29,642 nt of DNA from a virus, in IMG/VR virus record IMGVR_UViG_3300028607_000290, positions 1 through 29,642 of that record. One strand, written 5' to 3'. Of this stretch, positions 466 through 14,309 are shown piece after piece; position 1 is the first letter of the stretch; every line of letters begins with the position of its first letter. A program made the translations under genes and the position numbers. Under the pieces are notes generated by a model. It was not told the DNA's origin. It did not search any database and saw nothing but the letters and a program-made list of their open reading frames with translations.

Positions 466-534
466 TTATTCATATTCAATATTTTCATATATAATTTCTT
501 CATATTTAATGTTTTCATATTTAATGTTTTCATA
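466..534 (-). repeat. 15-base in-frame tandem repeat at the 3' end of the giant gene
   Basis: Reading the minus strand from 534, four full 15-base units (534-520, 519-505, 504-490, 489-475) are followed by a partial unit and the stop. The first two units are identical; the third and fourth have a few changes. They encode YENIK, YENIK, YEEII, YENIE and a final YE. The unit is a multiple of three, so copy-number change would keep the frame. Confidence 0.85.
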
Positions 535-3500
535 TTGAATGGGTTTATCTTTATTTAAATGCTTATATAAATCTTTTAATTGTTTTTCACTTAAACCTAA
601 TTCCCATTCTTTCCACCCAGCTAGCAAAGCTACTTTTGCCCACATCTCATTATCTTCGTCCATAGCATCTTGTATATTTGTCATTTTCTTTAAAACTCTA
701 TCGATGGGTAAGTTAAAAGTAGCAGATATTACATTACCACCAGCTAACCACGCTGGATTATCTATACTAAATCCCATAGTTTTCATCTCATCTAAATCAT
801 AATCAAGAGATCTAAGAGCTGATCTTACTTTTGTAACTTTAGAAGATATTGGTGGCGAAAAGTCTAAAAATTCCCAAGCGGCATTTTCGTATTTAGGTTT
901 ACCCTTAGCATGTTCCTCCGATATTTTATGTAGTACATTTTTAACAGTGGCAACCGCGGCACCACCATAACCAAGACCTCTTAATGTAGAATCAAGCATT
1001 CCATTTATAAGTCTACCCGATTTATTCATTATTTGTTGTTGATCATCTGGATCTTCGTCAAATCCTATAGCCAAGAAAGCTTGTTGTAATGCATTAAATA
1101 TTAAGTTTTGTATAAAACCATAATATAGTATTTTTGATAAATTAGTTTTAGCATCACCTCTACCATTATATAAATCTTGTATAGCTCTTTTTTGTAATCT
1201 AGCATACTGCATAGGGGCGTTAGCAAAAGCTAAAACAACTCTACCTAAACCAGATGCTTGTTGAGCACTAATTTTATCAGTTCTACTTGATTGTTGCGAT
1301 TCTTCAGTTAATTCTCTCCAATCTATAAACGCTTTTTCTTTAGCTTGTTTTTCAGATAACCCTTGTTTTTTATAAGCATTAATTCTATTTCGGTAAAAAC
1401 TTGCTCCACCAGAAGCAATTGCAAAACTATCAGCATGCCGTGTCATAATAAATCCTTTCTTTAATAAATACGCTAATGCCGCCTTAGATTTGTTTGTAGA
1501 TGTTGCTGCCATTTCAGCAATCTCAGCCTCATTTATATTAATTTTTAATCCATCACGTCTTTGTACTAAATATTCGGAATTAAATAAATAGTTAAAATCT
1601 TTCCAATATTGTGGTTGATTAGCAAATGCTTTTGCTGCAGCTAGGGGGTTATTGTCTCTAAGGTTAATATAATTCATAGCTGATATTGTTTGTAGCACAG
1701 CTGATCTAGAGTTTAAAAACATTATAGCACCAACAGAATTGTTTGTCCAATCTAAAACCTCATTTTCTAATTTTTGGAAAACACCACCTAATTTTTTTCT
1801 ATTTTTACCACTCTCCATTCTCTCTAATGCGCTCTCTAAACCTGCTCTATTGTTTTTACCAAAAGCAGCTTCATATTTATTTAAATTTTCTTTAGAAAAT
1901 ATAATATTTTTATTTGTTACCCACTCTTTTAAATGTCTTTGTCTTTTAGTAGTATTTAATCCATCAATTAAATCTGTAGTAATTGTTCCTGCTAGCCAAC
2001 TACTTCCAGGTTTAGCATAACCATCACCTTTATTTATTAATATTAATTTATCAGCAAATTCTTGTAAAGATTTGTTAGTATTAACATGATCAAGTAATTT
2101 TTTTAAATCTGTTTTAGATAATTCAGGAACTTTCATACCTTGTTTATTCCACATATAAACCCTCATTGCCTGCTCATTGGTATATCCTTTAGCTGGTCCT
2201 TTTTTTATCAAATCTCTAAGACTTTTAGGTACATCTGCAATTTCCTGTTTAAGCGCATGAAAATCCCTCATTAATTGACCTCTTTCTTTTGTAACACCAT
2301 TTTCCCCTCTAGCAAAAGGATCTAATAAATTCTTTTTATACCAAGCCATTTGAGCATCACCTTCTTTACCTTTGGCAAGTGTAGGGTATATTAATCCTAG
2401 AAAATCTTCCGCCGATGGTGGAATCCAAAATTGAAATTTACCTTTATTAGCACCTTGTACTTGCCCTTTTGATCTTGAATAAGTTTTATGAGAAGCAATA
2501 CCCGTTCTCTTTTCTAATATATCATTAAAATCTTTATTTAAATCTCTACTTGCTAAAGCTTGTTGAACATCTGACTTAACATCTATTTGATTTAAAACCC
2601 TACTAACAGCTTTTATATTTTTTATAGCATCATCAGCAAAATAAAAATCATTATATCCTTCACTTGCTTTTTCTAAAATCCAATCAGCTTTAGCTTTAGG
2701 AGTACTATTTTCTAAACCGGTTATATTTTCAATAGGTATTTCCAAACCAATACCTTTCAAAAACTTGTGTATAGCAACTGCAGATGCTTGTGGTCTAGCG
2801 GTTAATACAAATATATCACCACTACCAAATTTACCTTGTCTTTTTAATGCAAGATCGGCTAATGGTCCTTTTTTAGCCCCTATAACATTATTAAAATCAC
2901 TAAAGTCAGCAGTAGCGCCGGCTTTTTCTAATTCTCCATATTTTTCTGCAAATTGTGAAGGGGTTAATTTCATTGTTGCTGAGGTTGGACTTCCTGGAGC
3001 AAAATAAGGTAAATGGATTATAATTTTTTCTTTTGTTTTAGCTAGTGTATCATCAAAATCAAATACACTTAATCCTTTTAAATCTTTAGACTGTTTAGTT
3101 TCTCTACCTTTTATAATAGCTTGATCTATAATATTATTTTTAATTATATTTTCAATATTTTTTACTTGGTGTTTATATTCTCCATTAATCATTTCTTGAT
3201 AAAGCGTTTCCCTAAAACCACTTTTAAAACTATATATATGTTTAGCTAATTCTAAATTTTTACCAAATCTATATATATCAGCTATACTTGTTGCGGCAGA
3301 AACTATTTTACCATCGATTTTTATATAATCAATTATATTAAATTCAGATAACAGACCATATATTCCTCTATAGGTTTTTAATGCTCTTTTACCTTTCGTG
3401 CTCCATTTACCTTCAGCAATTAATAAAAATGATTCTAAACTCATTTCATTACTAGATTTTAAATGCTCATATTTTCTAACTTCCTTAAATACTCTTGTCT

Positions 3501-6500
3501 CAGCTGCAGATCTACTTTTTATTTTAACAAAAGTACTTTTTTGCATCTCACCATCTATTTTTTTATATGTCCAATATCCACCATCCTTCATTATTTCATC
3601 TACTTTAGATTTAAAATCTTGAGTATTAAAATAATTTTTAGGTGGTATAAACATATAACCAAATCCAGACCAAACTCGTTCACCCACTGACCCAAGTTCA
3701 GCATTATTTTTCTTTAATTTAGCTACATGCCCTAATCTCTCATTGAACATAATGTTCCCTTCACTGCTATGAACCCAGTGTTCTAATATTGAATTCCATA
3801 TATCATATAATTCTCTTTGAGCGTTAACTCCTTTATTACTAAAAAGTTTTCTAGCCATTTTTTGTCCACCACCATTTATACCTGCCCTCCAAATGGCTTG
3901 TATATTTTTCCATGTTCCGGCATCATATGCACCTCTTAATGCTTCCCATAAATCTACATTTTTTAAACGATCATGTAGTTCTTGTGGTAAATCTTTTAGA
4001 CTAACTTTTAATCCAGCTTCTATTTCCTTTTCCGTTAGTTTATGTTTTTTAGCTTTTGTGCTTATAGCAGCAAATATTCTATTTTTTGTTAGTGTGTTTT
4101 TTGTAGAATGCGGACTACCAACAATTGAATGGTGAATACCTACTAAATCCCCAAAAATACCTTTGTTACCTTCTAAATGTTCCTTGGGTATTTCGAATAG
4201 TTCTAGTATTGAGATATTTTGCCGAATATATTTCTTTATTGCTACTGGATCTTTTCTAAACTCCGCACTAGACATATTAGCATAACTATTCATATACATT
4301 TCACTGTACTTAGGATGATTTTTTAATACTTTTGTTAACTTAGTTGGTCCACTAATACCATCTTCAGCTCTTTGTGGTAACAATACAAAGTTAAAAAAGT
4401 CATCTATTTTATTCCATTTTGTATCATCATATTGTTTTATAAATTCTTTTCTACTAAAAAAGTTCCAAGTACCAAGAATTTTAATATAACTTCTGTAATT
4501 AGATATTCCTAACTCTTTTTGTAAATCTTTAGATGCTAATGATTCTGATTTACCACCCATGATTTGATTAAATAGAGCATCTTTTGATAGTTTATCGGCT
4601 AACGCGGGGTTAACATCATATTCTTTTTCCAAATATTCTCTAACAACTTGATTCCTTATAGCTTTATCTATTTCAATAAAGAATCCATCTATTTGCCTTA
4701 TTTGTTTACTTTGAGCTTTAATCTTTGTTTTCTTAAAATCAATATTACCATCTTTATCAAGTACTACATTAAACTTTTTAGCAAGTTCTTCTTTTGTTGT
4801 TATAGGTATTTTATCTTGTACTTTTAATCCAGATTTTTTACCTGTTTTAGCAGCTGACGCTTGCGCTTGCTCTCCAGTTCTAGGAGTTGTTTTATATAAA
4901 AAACCATTTAATAAAACATCTTGTATATTTGTAGATAATCCTTCTATTTCAGCTTTACCTGTTTTGAGCATAGCTCCATGAGGTAATATTTTCCACCCCG
5001 TTTTCCAGTTGTCATAGCCATTAGTAGTACCTTCAAATAACCATTTTAGTTTATTTTTAATGTATTTAGTAGATTCACCTAAATATTTTTTATTTATTCT
5101 TACTTCTGCTTCTTTTAATGTATATTTAGATCCGTCTTTTTTTCTACCTTCTTGAAATAGCTTTTGTATTTCAGTCTGTCTTTTAGCTCTAGGTATACCA
5201 CCGACCATCTCCATAGTATAATCTATAGTTATACTTTCTAAATCCCTATAATTGTATTCATGTAATTTATCAAAATTTATTTTGTTTTCTATTGCTGTTA
5301 ATTGGGCATTACTAATATTAAATCTTTTTCTAATGTGTATTAATCCTGCTTCTGCTTGTCTATGTCCAATACTACCACCAGCTGATATACCACCCTCTAA
5401 TTGTAAGAAAGTTCCGTCGGCATCTATACTTACAAATTCCATAGGTCTTTTTGTTTTTTCAAATCTTTCAAGTATATTACCTTGTCTACCGATTGGTCCC
5501 ATCATGCCACCTCCTGTACCTCTTGTAGTACCATAAAGTGCAGAATTTAAATAAGCACCAAATTCTGCTTGACCTTTTGTACTCTTAGTATTTTTTAAAT
5601 AGCTTTTAGTTAATTTAACAACTTCAAACATTGTTTCAGCTTCAAACTCTGCTCTTTCACCACCCTTTTCAGGTTGAAAAAAGTCATTTACAAACCCTTT
5701 TATCATAGGCATATTATTTTGTAACAACTTACCCTCAACGTTTCTAATTAATTCTTCTCTACCTTCTTCTCTAAATTTAATTAATTCTTCTGACAATCTT
5801 TTATTTTCTTGAACTAAATCTTTAGAGAAACGTGATTTATTTTTTAAATTACTTTTACCTTTTGCTTGAGCGAAATCTATTTCAAGTAAATCTATTTCTC
5901 GTAATTCTCGTAATTTTTTCCCATCAATTTCAAAATCAAACTCTACATAACGTTTTAATTTTTGTTTATACCGTGCTCCCGTAGTTATATCTCGTTGTAA
6001 CCTACCTATATAACCAATAAAATCTTCAGCTGTCCTTATTTTAGGAACATAACCTGGTATCCATTCTTCAAAGAAACTAGTAAATTCTTGTTTTATTTCT
6101 TTAACTACAGTATTAGCTGTTAAATCATAATATAATTCTGGTGTAGCAAATGCTTCTAACATATACGCTAAATATTCTTCTGATTTTATCTCATTAGATT
6201 TATCACCTTCTATTTTCTCTATCATGTCTTTCAATCCAATAGGAACACCACCTTCTAATCCAAGTAAAGATGCCATGATTTTTTTGTCATACTTTTTAAA
6301 TATAGTTGACATTTTTTTATTAAATCGTATGGCCATATTTTTATTTTGAGGTCTACTCATTATAGCATTAAAAGCAGCATGACCAACCATTTCATGTATT
6401 TCTTTACCTTTATAACCTCTTTCATATACTTCTCGTGAAATAACAACTTTATCCTTCACACCAGTACTTATTCCCTCAACATATTCTGCAAGAGCACCAT

Positions 6501-9408
6501 TAGCTGGTGCTTCAAGAGAGTTTTTATCAACAAACTTTACATAATAACCTTTATAATAATATTTACCACTTTCCGGATCTTTACCTACGGCTTCTTTTAT
6601 TACATGGTTTAAAACATCAGTTCTTCTTTTCTGGAAATTTTCTTCAAATTTTGGATTGTCAGGATTAAGGTCTTTAGCCATAGTTTCAACTTTAAACATG
6701 TAATCTAATGTTTCAATAGTTTTTTGATAACCATCATATTTAGCTTTATCTTTACTATTTAAGTTTTCAGGTAATATATTTCTACCACCTTTGCCTAGTA
6801 ACTCCTCCTGTTTTTGTTTTAATTTTACGATAGTACGTCTTTTCATATTAGTAGTCATAAAATCAGTTTTCTTAAAATGATGCGCACCAACAATTGCAAA
6901 TACAAAAGAATTAATTATTAATCTTTGTACTACCTCATCAAAATCACCGTACATGTCATTGAATTCAGCTCTAAAATCTTTTATATCCATAAAGTCATCC
7001 CATGCTAATTCTGTTATACTAGCTAATTCCATAGATGCTGCTCCTACAGGTCCAGCTTTTACTGTTTTCTGAAATAAACTATTTAACCAGGGCAATCGTG
7101 TAAGCCGTATACCAGATGTAAGAACACCACCAGTATAAAATGCAGCACCAGCAGTTGGTTTAAATCCAGCCACTTGCATCTTTGCTTCCTCAAGACCGGC
7201 TAATAAAATATGATACTTCATTTTATCATAAATATTTTTAGCTCTTCTTAAATTAAGCATTAATTTAGCTGGAACACCTGTTGCGCCAGTTGCGGCCGTG
7301 ATTAAAGCTAACTCAACTAACATAGGTGTAAAATGACCAATACCTTCAGATATATTCTCCCAAAAACCCCTTTCAAGGTTTTCAGCTTGTTCTTCTGTAA
7401 AGGTAAGAGCTCTTATATTACCCTTTTCAATTTCTTTTTTATTTTGATTATTAAAATCACTAACTAATTCGCTAACTTGATCTAACATATATCTTTTAGT
7501 GTTTATTTTACCACCTAATTTAGCTAATTTTTTATCCGCTTCGTGTTCTGATAAACCAAACCAACTAGTCATCATAGCTTTAACACCAGTATTAACAATA
7601 CTTCCTCCAAATCCGACTTTCTTAATTTTTTCTGGATCTGTGTCTAATTCATATATTTCAAACATTGCTCTTCTAGCACCTTCATTATCATCTAATGCGT
7701 TGTCATGCATCTCTATCCAGTCTAAATCTTTTTCTGAAATACTACCTCGTAGCATATCAAATACCCCATCAAATTTTCTACTACTAATCCCCAATTTATG
7801 CAACTCAGCATATGTTGCTTCACCTTTAAAAGTTTTAGGATCAATTATCCCTTTAGTAATTAATGAGATTATGTGTTTTTTATTTCCGACTCTTGTACCT
7901 CTTGTTGGTACAATTCCACCTGCCCAAGCATCACGATAATAACTTAGATCAATTTTAATTTTTTTATCTGCAGCTTCTTTTTGTAAACTATAATATCTAT
8001 TAAATAATTTACTATAATATTCACCCATAGCATCATAATCACTTAATGATTGGTCAGATGCTTTAATCATAGCAAGTTCATTATCAATAGTTGCTTTTGT
8101 ACCGTTATAAGCATCAGCTATATTTTCAGCTGATTTTTTACTATATTCACCTTCAAAGAAACTACTAGTTATATATTCATCTTCAGGGGTGAATTTTATC
8201 GCGCCCCATTTGGAAGCTGTGGATTTTTTAGGTTTACCAAGATCTTTAATATTTTTTTCCCAACTAATTATTTCTGCTCTAAACTCTATTATTTGCTTTT
8301 GAATACTTTCTTTGTTAGCCCCGTCTTTTGTTAAATTGTCTTTTAGATTATTTATTTTATCATAGTTACCCACCATTTTTCTACGAATCTCTCGTTTTGC
8401 GGCTCTATCTTTATCAATATAGTTTCCGTTCTCATCCGTACCACCAAGCATTGTAGCAACAAAAATTTCATACCTAGGATCTGATGTATATGGAAAATCC
8501 CCAAATTCTTTTTGAGCCTCGTTCATATTCTTTGATTTCTCACTATATGCCACATCATTTTTTGTGATATTAAATAAACCTTTACTCTTTTTTAAACCAG
8601 ATATTAAACTAAGGAATTGATCTTTAGACATATCAATACCTGTATCTTTTTTTACTTTTTCGTATGTTAGTTGTTGAATTTTCCCATCTTGTTCATCATC
8701 GAATGTTTGGGAATCTGCGCTGTGAGCTTCTGATATTATACCAAATTGCGCGGGATTATGTAGTATTTCTCTAAGATTTCTCTCAGCACTAATAAGAAGA
8801 GCTTCTACTTGGTCAGCACTAGCTTGTTTTTGCATAGGTTCAGCGTGATATCGTCTAGAAAGTGATAACAAATCTGAAAAAGAGCCTACGGCGGGTTTCG
8901 CGGTACCAGTGCTAGTTTCACCGGTATAAACATCTGGATATACTGATGGTTTTAAATTTGAAACCTCAAAGATTTGCGCTTCTTGATCAGTAGCATCGTC
9001 AGAGTCTAAAAAACTAATAAAATCATCATATTGACTTCTTAGTTTTTCTATATGTACACCCCAAGCGCGTGCATTCCACTTTGATTTTAAATTAAAAACA
9101 GTCCAATCAACATCATTAGTTCGTTTTACTCTAATAGCATCTGTACCCATTCTAGCTTCATCAAATTCCAAATTAGTATTAGCATATTGTCTAATTAACT
9201 TTTTAACAAGAGTTCCTTCAACTTTTTTACCTGCACTAAAATCAAATTCTTCTCTAGATATGTGGTCACTTTTAGGTACTCCCTGTTTTTCTTTGTAGGT
9301 TAATTTTAATCCGCGTGATTTAATATACTCTTCTAAACTTAATTGGTTCTTATCAGCTGCAGCTTGAACCTCTTCAAGAGAAAATATATAACCGTCTTTT
9401 TCGTACAT
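466..9408 (-). CDS. Giant polyvalent virion/cargo protein (2980 aa) with zincin-like and HAD-like domains
   Basis: This gene takes 30% of the window. The N-terminus (MYEKDGYIFSLEEVQAAADK) resembles short leaders on other giant phage cargo proteins. Hydrophobic segments lie near 690-715 and 820-838. A zincin-like site follows: HEMVGH at 1005-1010 (HExxxH spacing, as in the dipeptidyl peptidase III type) and EEYLA at 1077-1081 as a possible third-ligand motif. A HAD-superfamily domain spans about 2113-2268: DFDDT at 2117-2121 (motif I), LTARP with T2203 (motif II), K2238/K2240 (motif III), and FADD with D2259/D2260 (motif IV). Residues about 2570-2960 match a C-terminal block I recall from giant proteins of uncultured marine phages (for example SRSAVLQTISAMNYIN and LAFANAPMQYARLQK). 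It is probably packaged and injected. Substrates are unknown, and I see no convincing RNA polymerase site. The tail is a YENIK repeat. Confidence 0.8.
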   Translation of the reverse strand: MYEKDGYIFSLEEVQAAADKNQLSLEEYIKSRGLKLTYKEKQGVPKSDHISREEFDFSAGKKVEGTLVKKLIRQYANTNLEFDEARMGTDAIRVKRTNDVDWTVFNLKSKWNARAWGVHIEKLRSQYDDFISFLDSDDATDQEAQIFEVSNLKPSVYPDVYTGETSTGTAKPAVGSFSDLLSLSRRYHAEPMQKQASADQVEALLISAERNLREILHNPAQFGIISEAHSADSQTFDDEQDGKIQQLTYEKVKKDTGIDMSKDQFLSLISGLKKSKGLFNITKNDVAYSEKSKNMNEAQKEFGDFPYTSDPRYEIFVATMLGGTDENGNYIDKDRAAKREIRRKMVGNYDKINNLKDNLTKDGANKESIQKQIIEFRAEIISWEKNIKDLGKPKKSTASKWGAIKFTPEDEYITSSFFEGEYSKKSAENIADAYNGTKATIDNELAMIKASDQSLSDYDAMGEYYSKLFNRYYSLQKEAADKKIKIDLSYYRDAWAGGIVPTRGTRVGNKKHIISLITKGIIDPKTFKGEATYAELHKLGISSRKFDGVFDMLRGSISEKDLDWIEMHDNALDDNEGARRAMFEIYELDTDPEKIKKVGFGGSIVNTGVKAMMTSWFGLSEHEADKKLAKLGGKINTKRYMLDQVSELVSDFNNQNKKEIEKGNIRALTFTEEQAENLERGFWENISEGIGHFTPMLVELALITAATGATGVPAKLMLNLRRAKNIYDKMKYHILLAGLEEAKMQVAGFKPTAGAAFYTGGVLTSGIRLTRLPWLNSLFQKTVKAGPVGAASMELASITELAWDDFMDIKDFRAEFNDMYGDFDEVVQRLIINSFVFAIVGAHHFKKTDFMTTNMKRRTIVKLKQKQEELLGKGGRNILPENLNSKDKAKYDGYQKTIETLDYMFKVETMAKDLNPDNPKFEENFQKRRTDVLNHVIKEAVGKDPESGKYYYKGYYVKFVDKNSLEAPANGALAEYVEGISTGVKDKVVISREVYERGYKGKEIHEMVGHAAFNAIMSRPQNKNMAIRFNKKMSTIFKKYDKKIMASLLGLEGGVPIGLKDMIEKIEGDKSNEIKSEEYLAYMLEAFATPELYYDLTANTVVKEIKQEFTSFFEEWIPGYVPKIRTAEDFIGYIGRLQRDITTGARYKQKLKRYVEFDFEIDGKKLRELREIDLLEIDFAQAKGKSNLKNKSRFSKDLVQENKRLSEELIKFREEGREELIRNVEGKLLQNNMPMIKGFVNDFFQPEKGGERAEFEAETMFEVVKLTKSYLKNTKSTKGQAEFGAYLNSALYGTTRGTGGGMMGPIGRQGNILERFEKTKRPMEFVSIDADGTFLQLEGGISAGGSIGHRQAEAGLIHIRKRFNISNAQLTAIENKINFDKLHEYNYRDLESITIDYTMEMVGGIPRAKRQTEIQKLFQEGRKKDGSKYTLKEAEVRINKKYLGESTKYIKNKLKWLFEGTTNGYDNWKTGWKILPHGAMLKTGKAEIEGLSTNIQDVLLNGFLYKTTPRTGEQAQASAAKTGKKSGLKVQDKIPITTKEELAKKFNVVLDKDGNIDFKKTKIKAQSKQIRQIDGFFIEIDKAIRNQVVREYLEKEYDVNPALADKLSKDALFNQIMGGKSESLASKDLQKELGISNYRSYIKILGTWNFFSRKEFIKQYDDTKWNKIDDFFNFVLLPQRAEDGISGPTKLTKVLKNHPKYSEMYMNSYANMSSAEFRKDPVAIKKYIRQNISILELFEIPKEHLEGNKGIFGDLVGIHHSIVGSPHSTKNTLTKNRIFAAISTKAKKHKLTEKEIEAGLKVSLKDLPQELHDRLKNVDLWEALRGAYDAGTWKNIQAIWRAGINGGGQKMARKLFSNKGVNAQRELYDIWNSILEHWVHSSEGNIMFNERLGHVAKLKKNNAELGSVGERVWSGFGYMFIPPKNYFNTQDFKSKVDEIMKDGGYWTYKKIDGEMQKSTFVKIKSRSAAETRVFKEVRKYEHLKSSNEMSLESFLLIAEGKWSTKGKRALKTYRGIYGLLSEFNIIDYIKIDGKIVSAATSIADIYRFGKNLELAKHIYSFKSGFRETLYQEMINGEYKHQVKNIENIIKNNIIDQAIIKGRETKQSKDLKGLSVFDFDDTLAKTKEKIIIHLPYFAPGSPTSATMKLTPSQFAEKYGELEKAGATADFSDFNNVIGAKKGPLADLALKRQGKFGSGDIFVLTARPQASAVAIHKFLKGIGLEIPIENITGLENSTPKAKADWILEKASEGYNDFYFADDAIKNIKAVSRVLNQIDVKSDVQQALASRDLNKDFNDILEKRTGIASHKTYSRSKGQVQGANKGKFQFWIPPSAEDFLGLIYPTLAKGKEGDAQMAWYKKNLLDPFARGENGVTKERGQLMRDFHALKQEIADVPKSLRDLIKKGPAKGYTNEQAMRVYMWNKQGMKVPELSKTDLKKLLDHVNTNKSLQEFADKLILINKGDGYAKPGSSWLAGTITTDLIDGLNTTKRQRHLKEWVTNKNIIFSKENLNKYEAAFGKNNRAGLESALERMESGKNRKKLGGVFQKLENEVLDWTNNSVGAIMFLNSRSAVLQTISAMNYINLRDNNPLAAAKAFANQPQYWKDFNYLFNSEYLVQRRDGLKININEAEIAEMAATSTNKSKAALAYLLKKGFIMTRHADSFAIASGGASFYRNRINAYKKQGLSEKQAKEKAFIDWRELTEESQQSSRTDKISAQQASGLGRVVLAFANAPMQYARLQKRAIQDLYNGRGDAKTNLSKILYYGFIQNLIFNALQQAFLAIGFDEDPDDQQQIMNKSGRLINGMLDSTLRGLGYGGAAVATVKNVLHKISEEHAKGKPKYENAAWEFLDFSPPISSKVTKVRSALRSLDYDLDEMKTMGFSIDNPAWLAGGNVISATFNLPIDRVLKKMTNIQDAMDEDNEMWAKVALLAGWKEWELGLSEKQLKDLYKHLNKDKPIQYENIKYENIKYEEIIYENIEYE

Positions 9409-9438: not shown

Positions 9439-11376
9439 TTATTGCTCCAAACCTAGCATGGGAAATGTTAGTGTTCCTGTGGTATAGGTGTTTGTCTCAT
9501 CAGCATGCTCAGGAATTTTATTCATCGCGTCTAACCGCTCTTTCTCTTTTTTTTCCAAGATTTGTTTAGTTTTGTAAGTATAATATTTAAATAAATTATT
9601 TGTCTTTGTCGAATCTCTGGAACCTCCCATTAGAGCCGCAAATAAATTTTCCCTACCCGTTTCATTACTTATATCAAAGTCCATTGGTGCCAAGGATTGC
9701 GTTTTGTTAGTAACACTTCCTGTTGGATACCAAAGGACCACGAAAGTTTTACCATTTACTTTTTTTATGGTAGCGTTTTGAATGAGCTTCCCCTTTATAG
9801 TTCTACTACTAAAGTTTAATAATTCATCAAGAAGACTTTGGTTTTTACCCATATCTGCGCTAGTACTAGTTTGTAATTCTTTTTTCCAAATCTTATATAC
9901 TTTTACTTCTTCTTCTTTACGTGAGAATTCACCCGCTTGTTTAGCGTCATCATGTTCTAAACCTTCTTCCACTATCTCCCTCAATTTTTCGGATGTAAGT
10001 GGCTTCTCACCCCACGCTTTCTGTAATAAGTTATATTTTTTACCTTCTGTAGGTAAACTTACATCTGTAAGGTCAGATGGTTTATTTATTGTAGTAGATT
10101 TAAATAGTATATTTGCTAGGCGCATAACTCTTGAAAACATAGCAGTACCACTAGGACTAATATCCTCCGCGGTTAACCTATGCCTTTTTAGGAGTGCTGC
10201 ATCTTGGTTTGCTACCAGTTGTTCTGCAGTCGGAGTAATGCTTGGTATATCTGGCGCAAATAACGTAGGATCTTCAACTACGTTAAAAGCAGTATTAACA
10301 AATTCCATAAAATCGACATTAAAACTATTAATATTATCCTCTCCTATAGTAGTTATTCCATCTGGCAAAAGTTCTTCATTTTCAAAATCTGTTTTTAGGT
10401 ATCTTTTATCTTCCCCAAGGAAATTATGATGTAAGAATTTTCGCGTGTTATATCCGTAACCCTCTCCGGCAAAAATACCCTGTCCTGACTCCCATATTCC
10501 AGTGTCTGGATTTTGTTTACCAATAAGTTGTCTTTGTAAATCTTGTGTTAATTTTTTTATTTCAGCTTTTCCGTCTGCTTTAGTAATACCACCGTTTGCA
10601 ACCAACTTTTGTATATCTGAAATTTTCTTTCTATGTGGTGCAACGATCTTTTCAATTTTATCCCACTGTTTATCTTTCTCTACTGATGCATCTTTCCATA
10701 CACCAACGTTTGCAATTAAAACACTAAGCTCCATAAATTCCTCTTCTCCATCTTTTGTTGTATAAAAAACACCCATCACACCGTTTTGTTCATCAATTTT
10801 ATGCATAGAACCTGGTGTTTTAAACATTTGATTTAAAAAATCCATTGTTTTAGGGCTATCTATTAATCTTGAGTAATCTATATCATTATTTTTATGCCAT
10901 TCTAGACCTAACATTTCTAGCGCGTTTTTAGCCCCACCTATTTGTTTCATTTTTCTTGCTTCCGCATCTCGCTGTTTTATTGATAAGTCTCCCCAGCCTG
11001 CATCAGATCCTAATCCCAGACCTCCATCTTCGATAGATTTTCTCCAATATTCCTGGCGTTGTTCATAGTAATCTGTAATCATTTCCCCATTTTTCTTATC
11101 AATACCACGCGCTGCTCCATAATCCATTGCTTCCGCTCCGGCAGCATTCTTTTCTTGCCGCTCTTTCTCTTCTTTTTCTATTTTTTCTGCTTTTGCTATT
11201 GCGGCATCTTGAATTTCTTTAACCCCACTAACTATACTTTTTTGCATGTTTTGCCAACCCGCGGTAATTGATCTCCAATCTGGAATAACGGCTTCTGGAT
11301 TTCTATAAGCTCCACCTGGACTTTGTTGCCCCGGTGATTTTATATTTGGATTCCATTGTTCTAAGTTTGTTGCCAT
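9439..11376 (-). CDS. Probable internal virion or cargo protein (645 aa), function unknown
   Basis: I do not recognise a catalytic domain. The N-terminus is Pro/Gly/Asn-rich (1-35), followed by an amphipathic Lys/Glu/Ala-rich stretch (about 41-80) likely to be a coiled coil. The rest is a soluble mixed sequence with no signal peptide or membrane segment. The gene sits between the gp14-like/Hint internal protein and the giant cargo protein, and starts 2 bases past the end of the former; the giant gene's start lies 30 bases beyond its stop. That placement suggests one of the proteins stored in the capsid or tail barrel and released at infection. A structural baseplate or hub role cannot be excluded. 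Confidence 0.6.
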   Translation of the reverse strand: MATNLEQWNPNIKSPGQQSPGGAYRNPEAVIPDWRSITAGWQNMQKSIVSGVKEIQDAAIAKAEKIEKEEKERQEKNAAGAEAMDYGAARGIDKKNGEMITDYYEQRQEYWRKSIEDGGLGLGSDAGWGDLSIKQRDAEARKMKQIGGAKNALEMLGLEWHKNNDIDYSRLIDSPKTMDFLNQMFKTPGSMHKIDEQNGVMGVFYTTKDGEEEFMELSVLIANVGVWKDASVEKDKQWDKIEKIVAPHRKKISDIQKLVANGGITKADGKAEIKKLTQDLQRQLIGKQNPDTGIWESGQGIFAGEGYGYNTRKFLHHNFLGEDKRYLKTDFENEELLPDGITTIGEDNINSFNVDFMEFVNTAFNVVEDPTLFAPDIPSITPTAEQLVANQDAALLKRHRLTAEDISPSGTAMFSRVMRLANILFKSTTINKPSDLTDVSLPTEGKKYNLLQKAWGEKPLTSEKLREIVEEGLEHDDAKQAGEFSRKEEEVKVYKIWKKELQTSTSADMGKNQSLLDELLNFSSRTIKGKLIQNATIKKVNGKTFVVLWYPTGSVTNKTQSLAPMDFDISNETGRENLFAALMGGSRDSTKTNNLFKYYTYKTKQILEKKEKERLDAMNKIPEHADETNTYTTGTLTFPMLGLEQ

Positions 11377-11377
11377 A

Positions 11378-11740
11378 TTATATTAGTTTAAGTTCTAGTT
11401 CTTTATTAACTTTTTCTATTTTACCAGAAGCAACAACATTATTAATTATAAAAGTACTTTCTGTTTCTAAGTTGTATAATTTATCTACAAACTGAGATTC
11501 ACTATTCCAATTTAATTCTTTAGCATTGGTCCATCTATTATTTATATAAAGAGGATGTTCATCTGTTGTATAACAAGAACTATTATTGTATATTCTCTCA
11601 ATATCATTTATATCATGAACTAATACATTTTTAACTTTTACTTTTCCATTAAGTGATTTAACTTCATCTCCAGTTTTAACATCTTGTATAGATTTTAATG
11701 TTCCATCGTTCATATGAACTTTAGAATTTTTAATAAAACA
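11378..11740 (-). other. Hint domain module with much lower GC than its host gene
   Basis: The segment from the codon of C252 to the stop codes for the Hint domain. Counting by hand, 11401-11740 is about 24% G+C (80 of 340). The 140 bases just upstream (11741-11880) are about 51%, and the next 180 about 38%. The shift falls on the predicted cleavage Cys, which fits a domain acquired separately from the internal-protein part. Confidence 0.7.
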
Positions 11741-12493
11741 CAGCCCTGTTTTAAACGATTCCAGAACGGATACTGGCATGAGAGTTTTGGGGCGACTGAC
11801 GCTGTCTGTACCTTCGCCAGAAAATGCGCCCTCTGATATACCAGCAGAGAACATACCTCCAACAGCGCTAATGCCAGAAGATATTGCTTGTTGTTGTGCA
11901 CCCCAAGCAGCCATTTCTTGTTGTTGATAGTTTGTTTGTGTTTTAGACAATCTATCTAATTGAGACATGGTTCTATTTTCTTGTCCTTCCCACATATAAG
12001 CTCTACCTTGAGCTTCCATAGATTGCATTCTCCTAGCTTCATTCATTCTCACGGTCATAGCCTGTTGTTCACCTTGTGCTCTAAACATAGTATTTTTAGC
12101 TTCTTCTTGTCGTATCTTAGCAGATATACCTCTTTTACTTTGTAAAGCACCTTGTGCTAAAGCAGTAGCGCCACCACCACCCATACCAAATGCCCTCATT
12201 TGATCTAATGTGTTTGCTAATGATATATCTTCTTCTTCAGCTTGGAATTCCGCTGCTTCTGTAGCTACAGTAAGTTGTGTCATTGGATTACTAACCATAC
12301 CTCCTAGATTACTCATCCTATCATAAGGATCTATTATCTCTTGTCTATTTTGCTCTAAGGTTTCTATTTTACCTTGAGTTCTGCTAGCAGCTCTCCTAGC
12401 CTTTCTAGCACTACTTCCTGCCGATATGGCACTTACCCCGGTTGCTACCGCAGATATTCCTGCCCCAATTAACATTGCTGTTGCTACTCCCAT
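11378..12493 (-). CDS. T7 gp14-like internal virion protein with a C-terminal Hint (autocleaving) domain, 371 aa
   Basis: Residues 1-27 form an Ala/Gly-rich hydrophobic segment. Residues 28-205 are Gln/Ala/Met/Arg-rich helix of the kind seen in short-tailed phage internal (gp14-like) proteins. Residues 206-220 form a second small-residue hydrophobic patch. A Hint domain starts at C252 (CFIKNSKVHMNDGT, block A), with TTDEH at 309-313 (block B, H313) and TFIINNVVASGK at 347-358 (end block). The terminal His-Asn pair of splicing inteins is missing and only about 13 residues follow, so N-terminal cleavage at C252, not splicing, is expected. An upstream start at 12550 would overlap the GNAT gene by 52 bases; ATG at 12493 begins at the conserved hydrophobic segment and follows an AAATAAACTAAA leader. 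Confidence 0.8.
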   Translation of the reverse strand: MGVATAMLIGAGISAVATGVSAISAGSSARKARRAASRTQGKIETLEQNRQEIIDPYDRMSNLGGMVSNPMTQLTVATEAAEFQAEEEDISLANTLDQMRAFGMGGGGATALAQGALQSKRGISAKIRQEEAKNTMFRAQGEQQAMTVRMNEARRMQSMEAQGRAYMWEGQENRTMSQLDRLSKTQTNYQQQEMAAWGAQQQAISSGISAVGGMFSAGISEGAFSGEGTDSVSRPKTLMPVSVLESFKTGLCFIKNSKVHMNDGTLKSIQDVKTGDEVKSLNGKVKVKNVLVHDINDIERIYNNSSCYTTDEHPLYINNRWTNAKELNWNSESQFVDKLYNLETESTFIINNVVASGKIEKVNKELELKLI

Positions 12494-12498
12494 AATTT

Positions 12499-12909
12499 TT
12501 AGTTTATTTTTTTTATTAATTCGTAAGATGGTGTACGATCTACACTCCACCCTAATTTTTCAAAGGTATTAATTAAGTTATCATGTTTACCTATAAATAA
12601 TACATATTTAAAACCTTGTTCCCTGCAAACATTCTCTGCCGTAATAATTAAGAGCTCTAAAGCTTGTTGTCTGTCATTATCTCTATACTTAGGATCTGAT
12701 ATAATCCACTCAAACCAAACTCCTTTAGAATTCGTTGTATATATAAATCCAGCTAATACTGGTTTACCTTCTTTCTCAACCATTAAACCACCTAACCCGT
12801 TTTCAGGTAAAGCGTCTCTTGATGGTGTTTTCCATTTAGGCCATTGTTCCCACCATATAGGTAAGATATCCCAGTCTTTTTCATTTAATCTTCTTATATT
12901 TAATTTCAT
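12499..12909 (-). CDS. GNAT-family N-acetyltransferase-like protein (136 aa)
   Basis: Length and pattern fit a single GNAT fold: an N-terminal strand (MKLNIRRLNEKDWDIL), a Trp-rich segment (WWEQWPKWK), central strands (GLMVEKEGKPVLAGFIY; VWFEWIISDP), then the expected acetyl-CoA loop and helix (YRDNDRQQALELLIITAENV), and a final helix-strand (FEKLGWSVDRTPSYELI). The loop lacks the classic Q/R-x-x-G-x-G/A glycines, so cofactor binding may be altered. The gene lies between the muzzle half and the gp14-like protein and is probably co-transcribed with both. Acetylation of a virion or host protein is conceivable, but the substrate is unknown. A purely structural use of the fold is the alternative. 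Confidence 0.6.
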   Translation of the reverse strand: MKLNIRRLNEKDWDILPIWWEQWPKWKTPSRDALPENGLGGLMVEKEGKPVLAGFIYTTNSKGVWFEWIISDPKYRDNDRQQALELLIITAENVCREQGFKYVLFIGKHDNLINTFEKLGWSVDRTPSYELIKKIN

Positions 12910-12935: not shown

Positions 12936-14309
12936 TTATTTTGAAGATAATATAACTTCAGAACTAGCACCAAATAATTCAGCTTTATTAGCGTTAGCAC
13001 TTTCTGTAGGATTCCAATACCTCATTCTAACATCTGTATAATATCCTTTTATACCGGTTGTATTAAAATAACTATTATCTTGAAAAACATCAACTGCTTT
13101 ATTTCGTAATTCGCTAAAGTATTTACCTTCTTTTCTTACAAAGCCTATTATCTCTCCTGAAGCTACAGTACCTTCTTTTGGTACTTTATATGCTTCATTT
13201 ACATTATTATAATCAATATATCCAGTTATAGCATAACTACCTGATGATAAACTATCCATTTCCCAACCAGTGGTACCTTCATAATTAATTGTTAAAAAGT
13301 TCTTTATAATACTAGGTTGATCATTAAATATAAAATCTATATATGCTGGATCAGGGAAAGATATAACACCGTTTACCGCATAAAATTTTGATCTAGGTAC
13401 ATCAGTAGCATAGTGTTTATACATATCTTTTCCGGCAAACGTATAAAACTTATTATTTAAACTAGCGCCAAACGTTGGTTTATATGTATAAAAACTAACC
13501 CAACCTTTTACTTTTTCACTAAAACATAACGTTCTATATTTACTTAAGTCCGTATCTATTACTGGTGCACCATCCGAATTAGTACTAAATACACCACCCT
13601 TTATTTCAGGACCTTGTAAAGATAGAACATATGTTTGTTTTTGTTCATCAAAACATCCATATATATCATCACACAGAACTAGGTTATCTTTAAAAAAGTC
13701 TTTCATTCCATATTCAGATATAGGTGTTATACCATCACCGCCACCGCTACCGCTAGATAATCTACATATAACACCCCTGTCTTTATCTGCAAAGTATTTT
13801 CTATTACCAAACACGGCAAAACTTTCAGGATTTCTACTTATACCATACTTACCAGCGTAAGGAGTTATTTGCCCTATTATTTGAGCACCAGAAGTTGTTA
13901 TTCGTCCACCTTCAGCGGTATAAATAGCATCTTTATCTATAAGAGCTCTATTAACTTTATTTTCTTGAAATATATTTAAATTTGTATCTTCAGCGTGTAG
14001 TTTTTGTATACTACCATGGGATATATCTACAGCCCTTGTAATTTCTTCACCAACCGGAAATTGATTTAATTCATTAAATTCAGTTCTAGAATTAAATATA
14101 CCACTATGTATCATAGCATTTGGTCGTTTATATTCATCATACCTCTCATTGACAACATATGCTTTAGCACCATAATCCATCTGTGTACCATTAAATTCAC
14201 CTTTTATCCTAGATTCTTCAACATGATATTGACCAGTAGCTTGACTACCAGTATCTCCACCTGCTAGTATTATCGAATTAAAATATCCTATTTCTATTGT
14301 TATTGCCAT
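12936..14309 (-). CDS. Muzzle/stabilisation protein, C-terminal half encoded separately (457 aa)
   Basis: The strongest blocks are NQFPVGEEITRAVD (82-95), GSIQKLHAEDTNLNIFQENK (99-118), ALIDKDAIYTAEGG (122-135), YGISRNPESFA (155-165) and ITPISEYGMKDFFKDNL (194-210). These match the second half of long muzzle (tail stabilisation) proteins of crAss-like phages, where in the examples I recall they share a chain with the region encoded here by the upstream 1205-aa gene. Repeated beta segments suggest propeller-like structure. The start is 16 bases past the upstream stop, with an AAAATAAACAAATG context. Probably part of the tail barrel or nozzle. The separate reading frame looks like fission of one gene, but could be an ancestral arrangement in this lineage. 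Confidence 0.7.
   Translation of the reverse strand: MAITIEIGYFNSIILAGGDTGSQATGQYHVEESRIKGEFNGTQMDYGAKAYVVNERYDEYKRPNAMIHSGIFNSRTEFNELNQFPVGEEITRAVDISHGSIQKLHAEDTNLNIFQENKVNRALIDKDAIYTAEGGRITTSGAQIIGQITPYAGKYGISRNPESFAVFGNRKYFADKDRGVICRLSSGSGGGDGITPISEYGMKDFFKDNLVLCDDIYGCFDEQKQTYVLSLQGPEIKGGVFSTNSDGAPVIDTDLSKYRTLCFSEKVKGWVSFYTYKPTFGASLNNKFYTFAGKDMYKHYATDVPRSKFYAVNGVISFPDPAYIDFIFNDQPSIIKNFLTINYEGTTGWEMDSLSSGSYAITGYIDYNNVNEAYKVPKEGTVASGEIIGFVRKEGKYFSELRNKAVDVFQDNSYFNTTGIKGYYTDVRMRYWNPTESANANKAELFGASSEVILSSK

Follow-up and report, generated by a model that had tools for sequence, protein, structure and literature searches.

What does a Hint domain do at the end of a small phage virion protein? 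The question is raised by a gene in a 29,642-nucleotide viral DNA stretch (positions 1 to 29,642 of IMG/VR record IMGVR_UViG_3300028607_000290; hereafter, the window). The gene (11378..12493) is one intact open frame from ATG to TAA and encodes a 371-aa fusion protein. Coordinates given below refer to the window unless another locus is named, and all window features lie on its minus strand.

The fusion protein and its gene neighborhood

The fusion protein was divided into four parts: a helical gp14-like internal virion protein part (residues 1-219; 11837..12493), which is 45-58% identical to its relatives; a linker with high third-position GC and no counterpart in relatives (residues 220-251; 11741..11836); a minimal Hint domain (residues 252-356; 11426..11740); and a 15-residue tail (residues 357-371; 11381..11425). 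The part shared with the family stops near residue 219, before the start of the Hint domain at C252.

The gene order in the window is terminase, portal, a gene in the capsid position, muzzle-like and GNAT-like genes, the fusion gene, and then two genes encoding proteins of 645 and 2980 aa. The muzzle-like tail protein (12936..14309) matches crAss_MUZ (E 1e-7) and the virion structural family phrog_14478, while the GNAT-like protein (12499..12909; phrog_17252, E 8e-32) is a conserved neighbor in relatives. The 645-aa protein (9439..11376) was assigned to the gp15 position by the same gene order as in cultured relatives, and the 2980-aa protein (466..9408) to the gp16 position by gene order and by its relatives in L018, L015, L006 and L008. 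Cultured flavobacterial phages share this order, namely Cellulophaga phages phi18:3 and phi19:3 (Pachyviridae), the Flavobacterium elemo phages and Maribacter phage Panino; judging from these cultured relatives, the host would be a marine flavobacterium. A contig chimera at the Hint junction was considered and rejected, as the flanking gene order is kept on both sides (GNAT-like and muzzle-like genes upstream, gp15 and gp16 positions downstream), and the gp16-position protein downstream of the junction is related to those of L018, L015 and L006.

Several further features of these neighbors were observed. The GNAT-like gene adjoins the ejection-type gene here, in cultured Pachyviridae and in elemo phages; next to the Hint-bearing protein of L172 there is likewise an acetyltransferase-like gene. 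The gp15-position protein has no Pfam match and can hardly be aligned to the versions in relatives, though the muzzle proteins are 66-72% identical; this gene either changes very fast or was exchanged. In the gp16-position protein, where no Pfam domain was found, there are a zincin-like HEMVGH motif at residue 1005 (6379-6396) and a HAD-like FDFDDT motif at residue 2115 (3040-3066).

The preliminary description of this locus had called the N part gp14-like and had assigned it to the internal virion proteins. The second assignment is supported at the level of the family: MS/MS is the source of the structural annotation given to the protein at the matching position in phi18:3 (gp120), and a profile comparison by hhalign links the window's family to the cultured Pachyviridae and elemo proteins with a probability of 96.7 (E 3e-10). 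Like T7 gp14 (PF24072), the N part is small (about 200 residues), helical and encoded ahead of two large ejection-position genes. Helices are predicted at residues 12-48, 78-102 and 107-218. On the sequence side the link is an indirect one made through profiles: the elemo homolog matches Pfam T7_gp14 with E 0.003, below the cut-off, and the 371-aa protein itself has no direct match to the gp14 family. Solved structures gave neither a sequence match nor a fold match to the N part (Foldseek with a low-confidence model, pTM 0.38), and PDB matches to Tako8 consisted of low-complexity repeats and were set aside. Because it draws on position, size, helices and weak, indirect profile evidence with no structural match, "gp14-like" is a fair working name rather than proven membership. 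The 371-aa protein is probably a small internal virion protein of the DNA-ejection type; by analogy with T7 gp14, its N part may act on membranes.

A Hint domain suited to cleavage and its kin

Against a Pfam cut-off of 27, the Hint part scores 42-45 bits with Vint (E 1.1e-11). Residues 238-371 were modeled with AlphaFold2 on an alignment with 18 other phage Hints, at a mean pLDDT of 80, the linker part excepted. The top fold matches of this model (Foldseek, VIA-align; rmsd 1.9-2.8 over 102-117 residues, with Z of 12.7-13.5) are Vint 8r2c, BIL2 6y75/6tmm, Hedgehog 1at0, BIL 2lwy and the gp41-1 intein 6qaz. The position-1 residue is C252 (11738..11740), the predicted nucleophile, with the predicted cleavage point between Leu251 and Cys252; block B carries the TxxH motif T310-D311-E312-H313 (11555..11566).

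Splicing inteins have a His-Asn pair, followed by Cys, Ser or Thr and a C-extein, and their last step is Asn cyclization. Here the end block reads FIINNVVASGK, with Ala355-Ser356 (11426..11431) at the place of the pair, then Gly357 and 15 residues to the C-terminus. Since C252, T310 and H313 are present and Ala-Ser stands for His-Asn, the residues for the first step, an N-S acyl shift, are in place and those for Asn cyclization are missing. From its residues, the Hint domain should cleave and not splice. No homing endonuclease was found in it. These results agree with the preliminary description, which had placed the start of the Hint domain at C252, had pointed to the missing His-Asn pair and the near absence of sequence after the domain, and had judged the residue set competent for cleavage and deficient for splicing. 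It had also proposed fold prediction as a check, and Hint structures indeed top the matches.

Among the known systems, Vint (PF14623) is the best Pfam match and its Tetrahymena structure 8r2c aligns with Z 13.5 over 117 residues, sharing Cys1 and a TxxHP block B. In eukaryotes, Vint has been described downstream of VWA and Vwaint domains (PMC2362128), whereas the window Hint is shorter and sits behind a phage internal protein, and the 371-aa protein has no VWA match. The Hedgehog Hint (PF01079; 1at0, Z 12.9) is likewise C-terminal, starts with CF, has TxxH, lacks His-Asn and shares the end block -N-V-V-A-S-; however, the window Hint scores under the Pfam cut-off (24.7 vs 29.7 bits), and with 15 residues past the core it has no sterol-recognition region of the Hedgehog/Hog kind. 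BIL domains, whose main reaction is cleavage rather than splicing (PMC7664689), have the same fold (2lwy, Z 12.8), but the window Hint is C-terminal, lacks a C-extein and has a different end block.

Closer kin were found in uncultured phages. Hints are common in phage contigs, as found by a degenerate motif scan and a profile-guided scan, and 24 other distinct Hints form a class of short domains that end 0-38 residues short of the C-terminus, none of which has His-Asn. All 24 have CF and the block B His, with Thr or Ser at -3 in 19 and Ala in 5; 15 of them came from a scan with no Cys requirement. An alignment of 19 minimal phage Hints likewise shows no variation at Cys1 or at the block B His. 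The window Hint aligns with the class members over its full length at 20-31% identity, and resembles them (L172, L251, L227, L276, L145, L125 and others) in length, end position and the kept Cys and His, the His-Asn place being occupied by [ST]-D or A-S. It belongs to this C-terminal His-Asn-less class. Unlike the fusion protein, the class carriers are other structural-region proteins; those in L172, L227 and L251 are 375-385 aa long with the Hint starting at residue 247-257. Homology of their N parts to ours, suggested by GG..SGA motifs seen by eye, is not claimed, as the hhalign probability is just 0.7.

The C-terminal slot across the family

We assembled 180 distinct family members (the window protein and 179 relatives) from three viral-contig scans centered on different branches and from earlier loci. 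Only the window protein has a Hint domain, nine members have a Peptidase_S74/ICA-like domain, and 170 have neither, stopping where the helical part does or running on into loose tails. A Vint search in the records of 49 relatives found none, and single-protein searches of viral contigs, genome contigs and cultured phages brought up nothing closely related to either the fusion or its Hint. On the family tree, the nearest kin of the window protein are L015 and L018, which have no domain, and L002-L006, which have S74 or none. As the Hint is absent from 179 relatives and from the nearest kin, it is best described as a private gain of the window lineage, and the lineage-specific gain proposed in the preliminary description is thereby upheld.

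In our view, the most useful new point of this analysis is that some relatives carry a second, unrelated fold of the self-cutting kind in the same C-terminal slot. Peptidase_S74/ICA, the endosialidase chaperone, is unrelated to Hint in both fold and chemistry. It is carried by L002 (10470-10676), L003, L004, L031, L067, L069, L389, L440 and L446, and in all nine the domain starts with SDRRLK, which holds a Ser and a Lys at +5. The same spacing is seen in the cutting dyads S911/K916 of endoNF and S587/K592 of MyRF (PMC8326128). The domain of relatives is short and scores 13.6-18.2 bits, below the Pfam cut-off of 22, and it stops before the final C-terminal coiled coil, which in MyRF drives trimerization and activates cleavage (PMC8326128). 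With no final coiled coil and a score under the cut-off, self-cutting of this domain is unsure. The slot is empty in most members, so the module is dispensable in the mature protein as such.

The S74-like domain is scattered on a tree of 78 members and requires five gains or losses there, at least four of which are forced by well-supported branches. It is present in L069 and missing from the near twin L084. Coupling of S74 to the gp15 type was rejected, since the gp15 proteins of these two genomes are almost alike (1094 bits) and S74 occurs in at least five gp15 groups. The gp15 of the window is unlike all others compared. A by-eye likeness of the linker or tail to an S74 remnant (SVSRPKT...; ELELKLI vs DVEFKRI) is too weak to claim.

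The preliminary description had counted about 24% GC in the Hint part and about 51% in the 140 bases before it and had taken the break as a sign of recent capture. The counts were accurate: residues 1-251 have 42.4% GC, the last 140 bases ahead of C252 have 50.7% and the Hint has 23.3%, and the step at C252 is the largest in the window between adjacent 360/360-nt stretches (0.197; none of the 613 other positions exceeds 0.122). The interpretation is not borne out. The GC expected for the Hint from its amino acids and the phage's own codon use is 25.3%, near the observed value, whose GC3 is slightly low, so the drop is mostly a matter of amino-acid composition, and S74 relatives show a like fall at the matching place, from about 0.40 to 0.22-0.30. 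This comes close to the outcome that had been named as refuting capture, a break common to relatives. Capture of the Hint is therefore supported by its absence from relatives and not by GC.

In the codon profile, which had been suggested as a check, the oddity lies in the linker before C252, the Hint being near expectation. Over about 47 codons before C252, GC3 is 0.40 against 0.16 expected, and none of 5000 simulations was as high. Third-position GC in the stretch 11741-11860 is 0.40, and 0.11-0.25 in the phage's other genes. This stretch may be a trace of the joining event. Searches with the pre-C252 and junction DNA came back empty for E. coli genomes and for plasmids and gave only a 26-base chance match in phages.

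Proposed role of the Hint domain

We propose, with a probability of about 0.55, that the 371-aa protein is an ejection-type precursor whose C-terminal Hint removes itself and probably serves as a temporary cap. In this mechanism C252 would attack the carbonyl of Leu251 in an N-S acyl shift aided by T310 and H313, and, for want of His-Asn and a C-extein, water or a small thiol would then resolve the thioester. The preliminary description had suggested that such cleavage could time the protein's release or attach a nucleophile to its end. In our proposal the mature protein would have 251 residues, and the 120 residues of the Hint would be set free after having probably acted as a cap during folding or head assembly, in the slot that other members leave empty or fill with the S74/ICA-like domain. 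The Vint match, the fold, the constancy of Cys and His, the S74-like domain in the slot, the mostly empty slot and the MS/MS annotation in phi18:3 all count in favor of this proposal. Against it, no close relative has a Hint fusion that would show selection on the catalytic residues here, the S74-like domain of relatives is perhaps non-cutting (no coiled coil, sub-cut-off score), and homology cannot be demonstrated for the N parts of the carriers of the closest Hints (L227 and L172 types).

A rival reading, which we consider rather unlikely, is that the Hint folds without cutting and remains part of the virion, where it would serve for binding or as a structural module at the C-terminus; the S74-like domain of relatives may behave likewise. 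The lack of a C-terminal coiled coil in that domain is consistent with this, as are the free swapping of C-terminal modules and their absence in 170 of the 180 members, which would be expected of accessory binding modules; yet Cys1 and the block B His, needless for a purely structural role, are kept here and throughout the class of 24. Alternatively, the Leu251 thioester might be taken by a nucleophile other than water (an amine, the N-terminal Cys of a partner, or a lipid), leaving the protein cross-linked or modified, as in Hedgehog or as proposed for some BIL domains. A His-Asn-less C-terminal Hint with an N-S shift is indeed the Hedgehog arrangement, and 1at0 is among the best structural matches, but with no sterol-recognition region and no partner identified we find such a transfer improbable. 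Finally, the Hint might be a functionless remnant of a mobile element, a former intein or stray Hint tolerated at a dispensable C-terminus. Its occurrence in one of 180 members and the unusual composition of the linker fit a remnant, but the frame and catalytic residues are intact, there is no homing endonuclease, and the phage class is uniformly C-terminal and His-Asn-less rather than a set of decaying copies, which makes this reading very improbable.

Returning to the self-removing cap, it can be speculated that the C-terminal slot of the whole family takes disposable self-cutting caps, with Hint and S74/ICA put there independently, keeping the protein assembly-competent and then removing themselves; we consider this generalization unlikely as it stands. 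If the cap reading is true, the caps would be an assembly timer or a solubilizer of a membrane-active protein. T7 gp14 alone is insoluble in water and is held by gp15 (PMC8954989). The solubility and head packing of membrane-active ejection proteins are little understood and could be explained simply by a removable C-terminal cap. This family offers a natural comparison of members with Hint, with the S74-like domain and with neither.

The C-terminal His-Asn-less phage Hint class, with its conserved Cys and His, is worth naming in its own right. Three queries against 50,697 cultured-phage records found no member of it, the only hits being short block A matches in helicases. In uncultured phages, structural-region proteins of L125, L201, L110 and L120 carry tandem Hints, the first with His-Asn and the second, C-terminal one without it.
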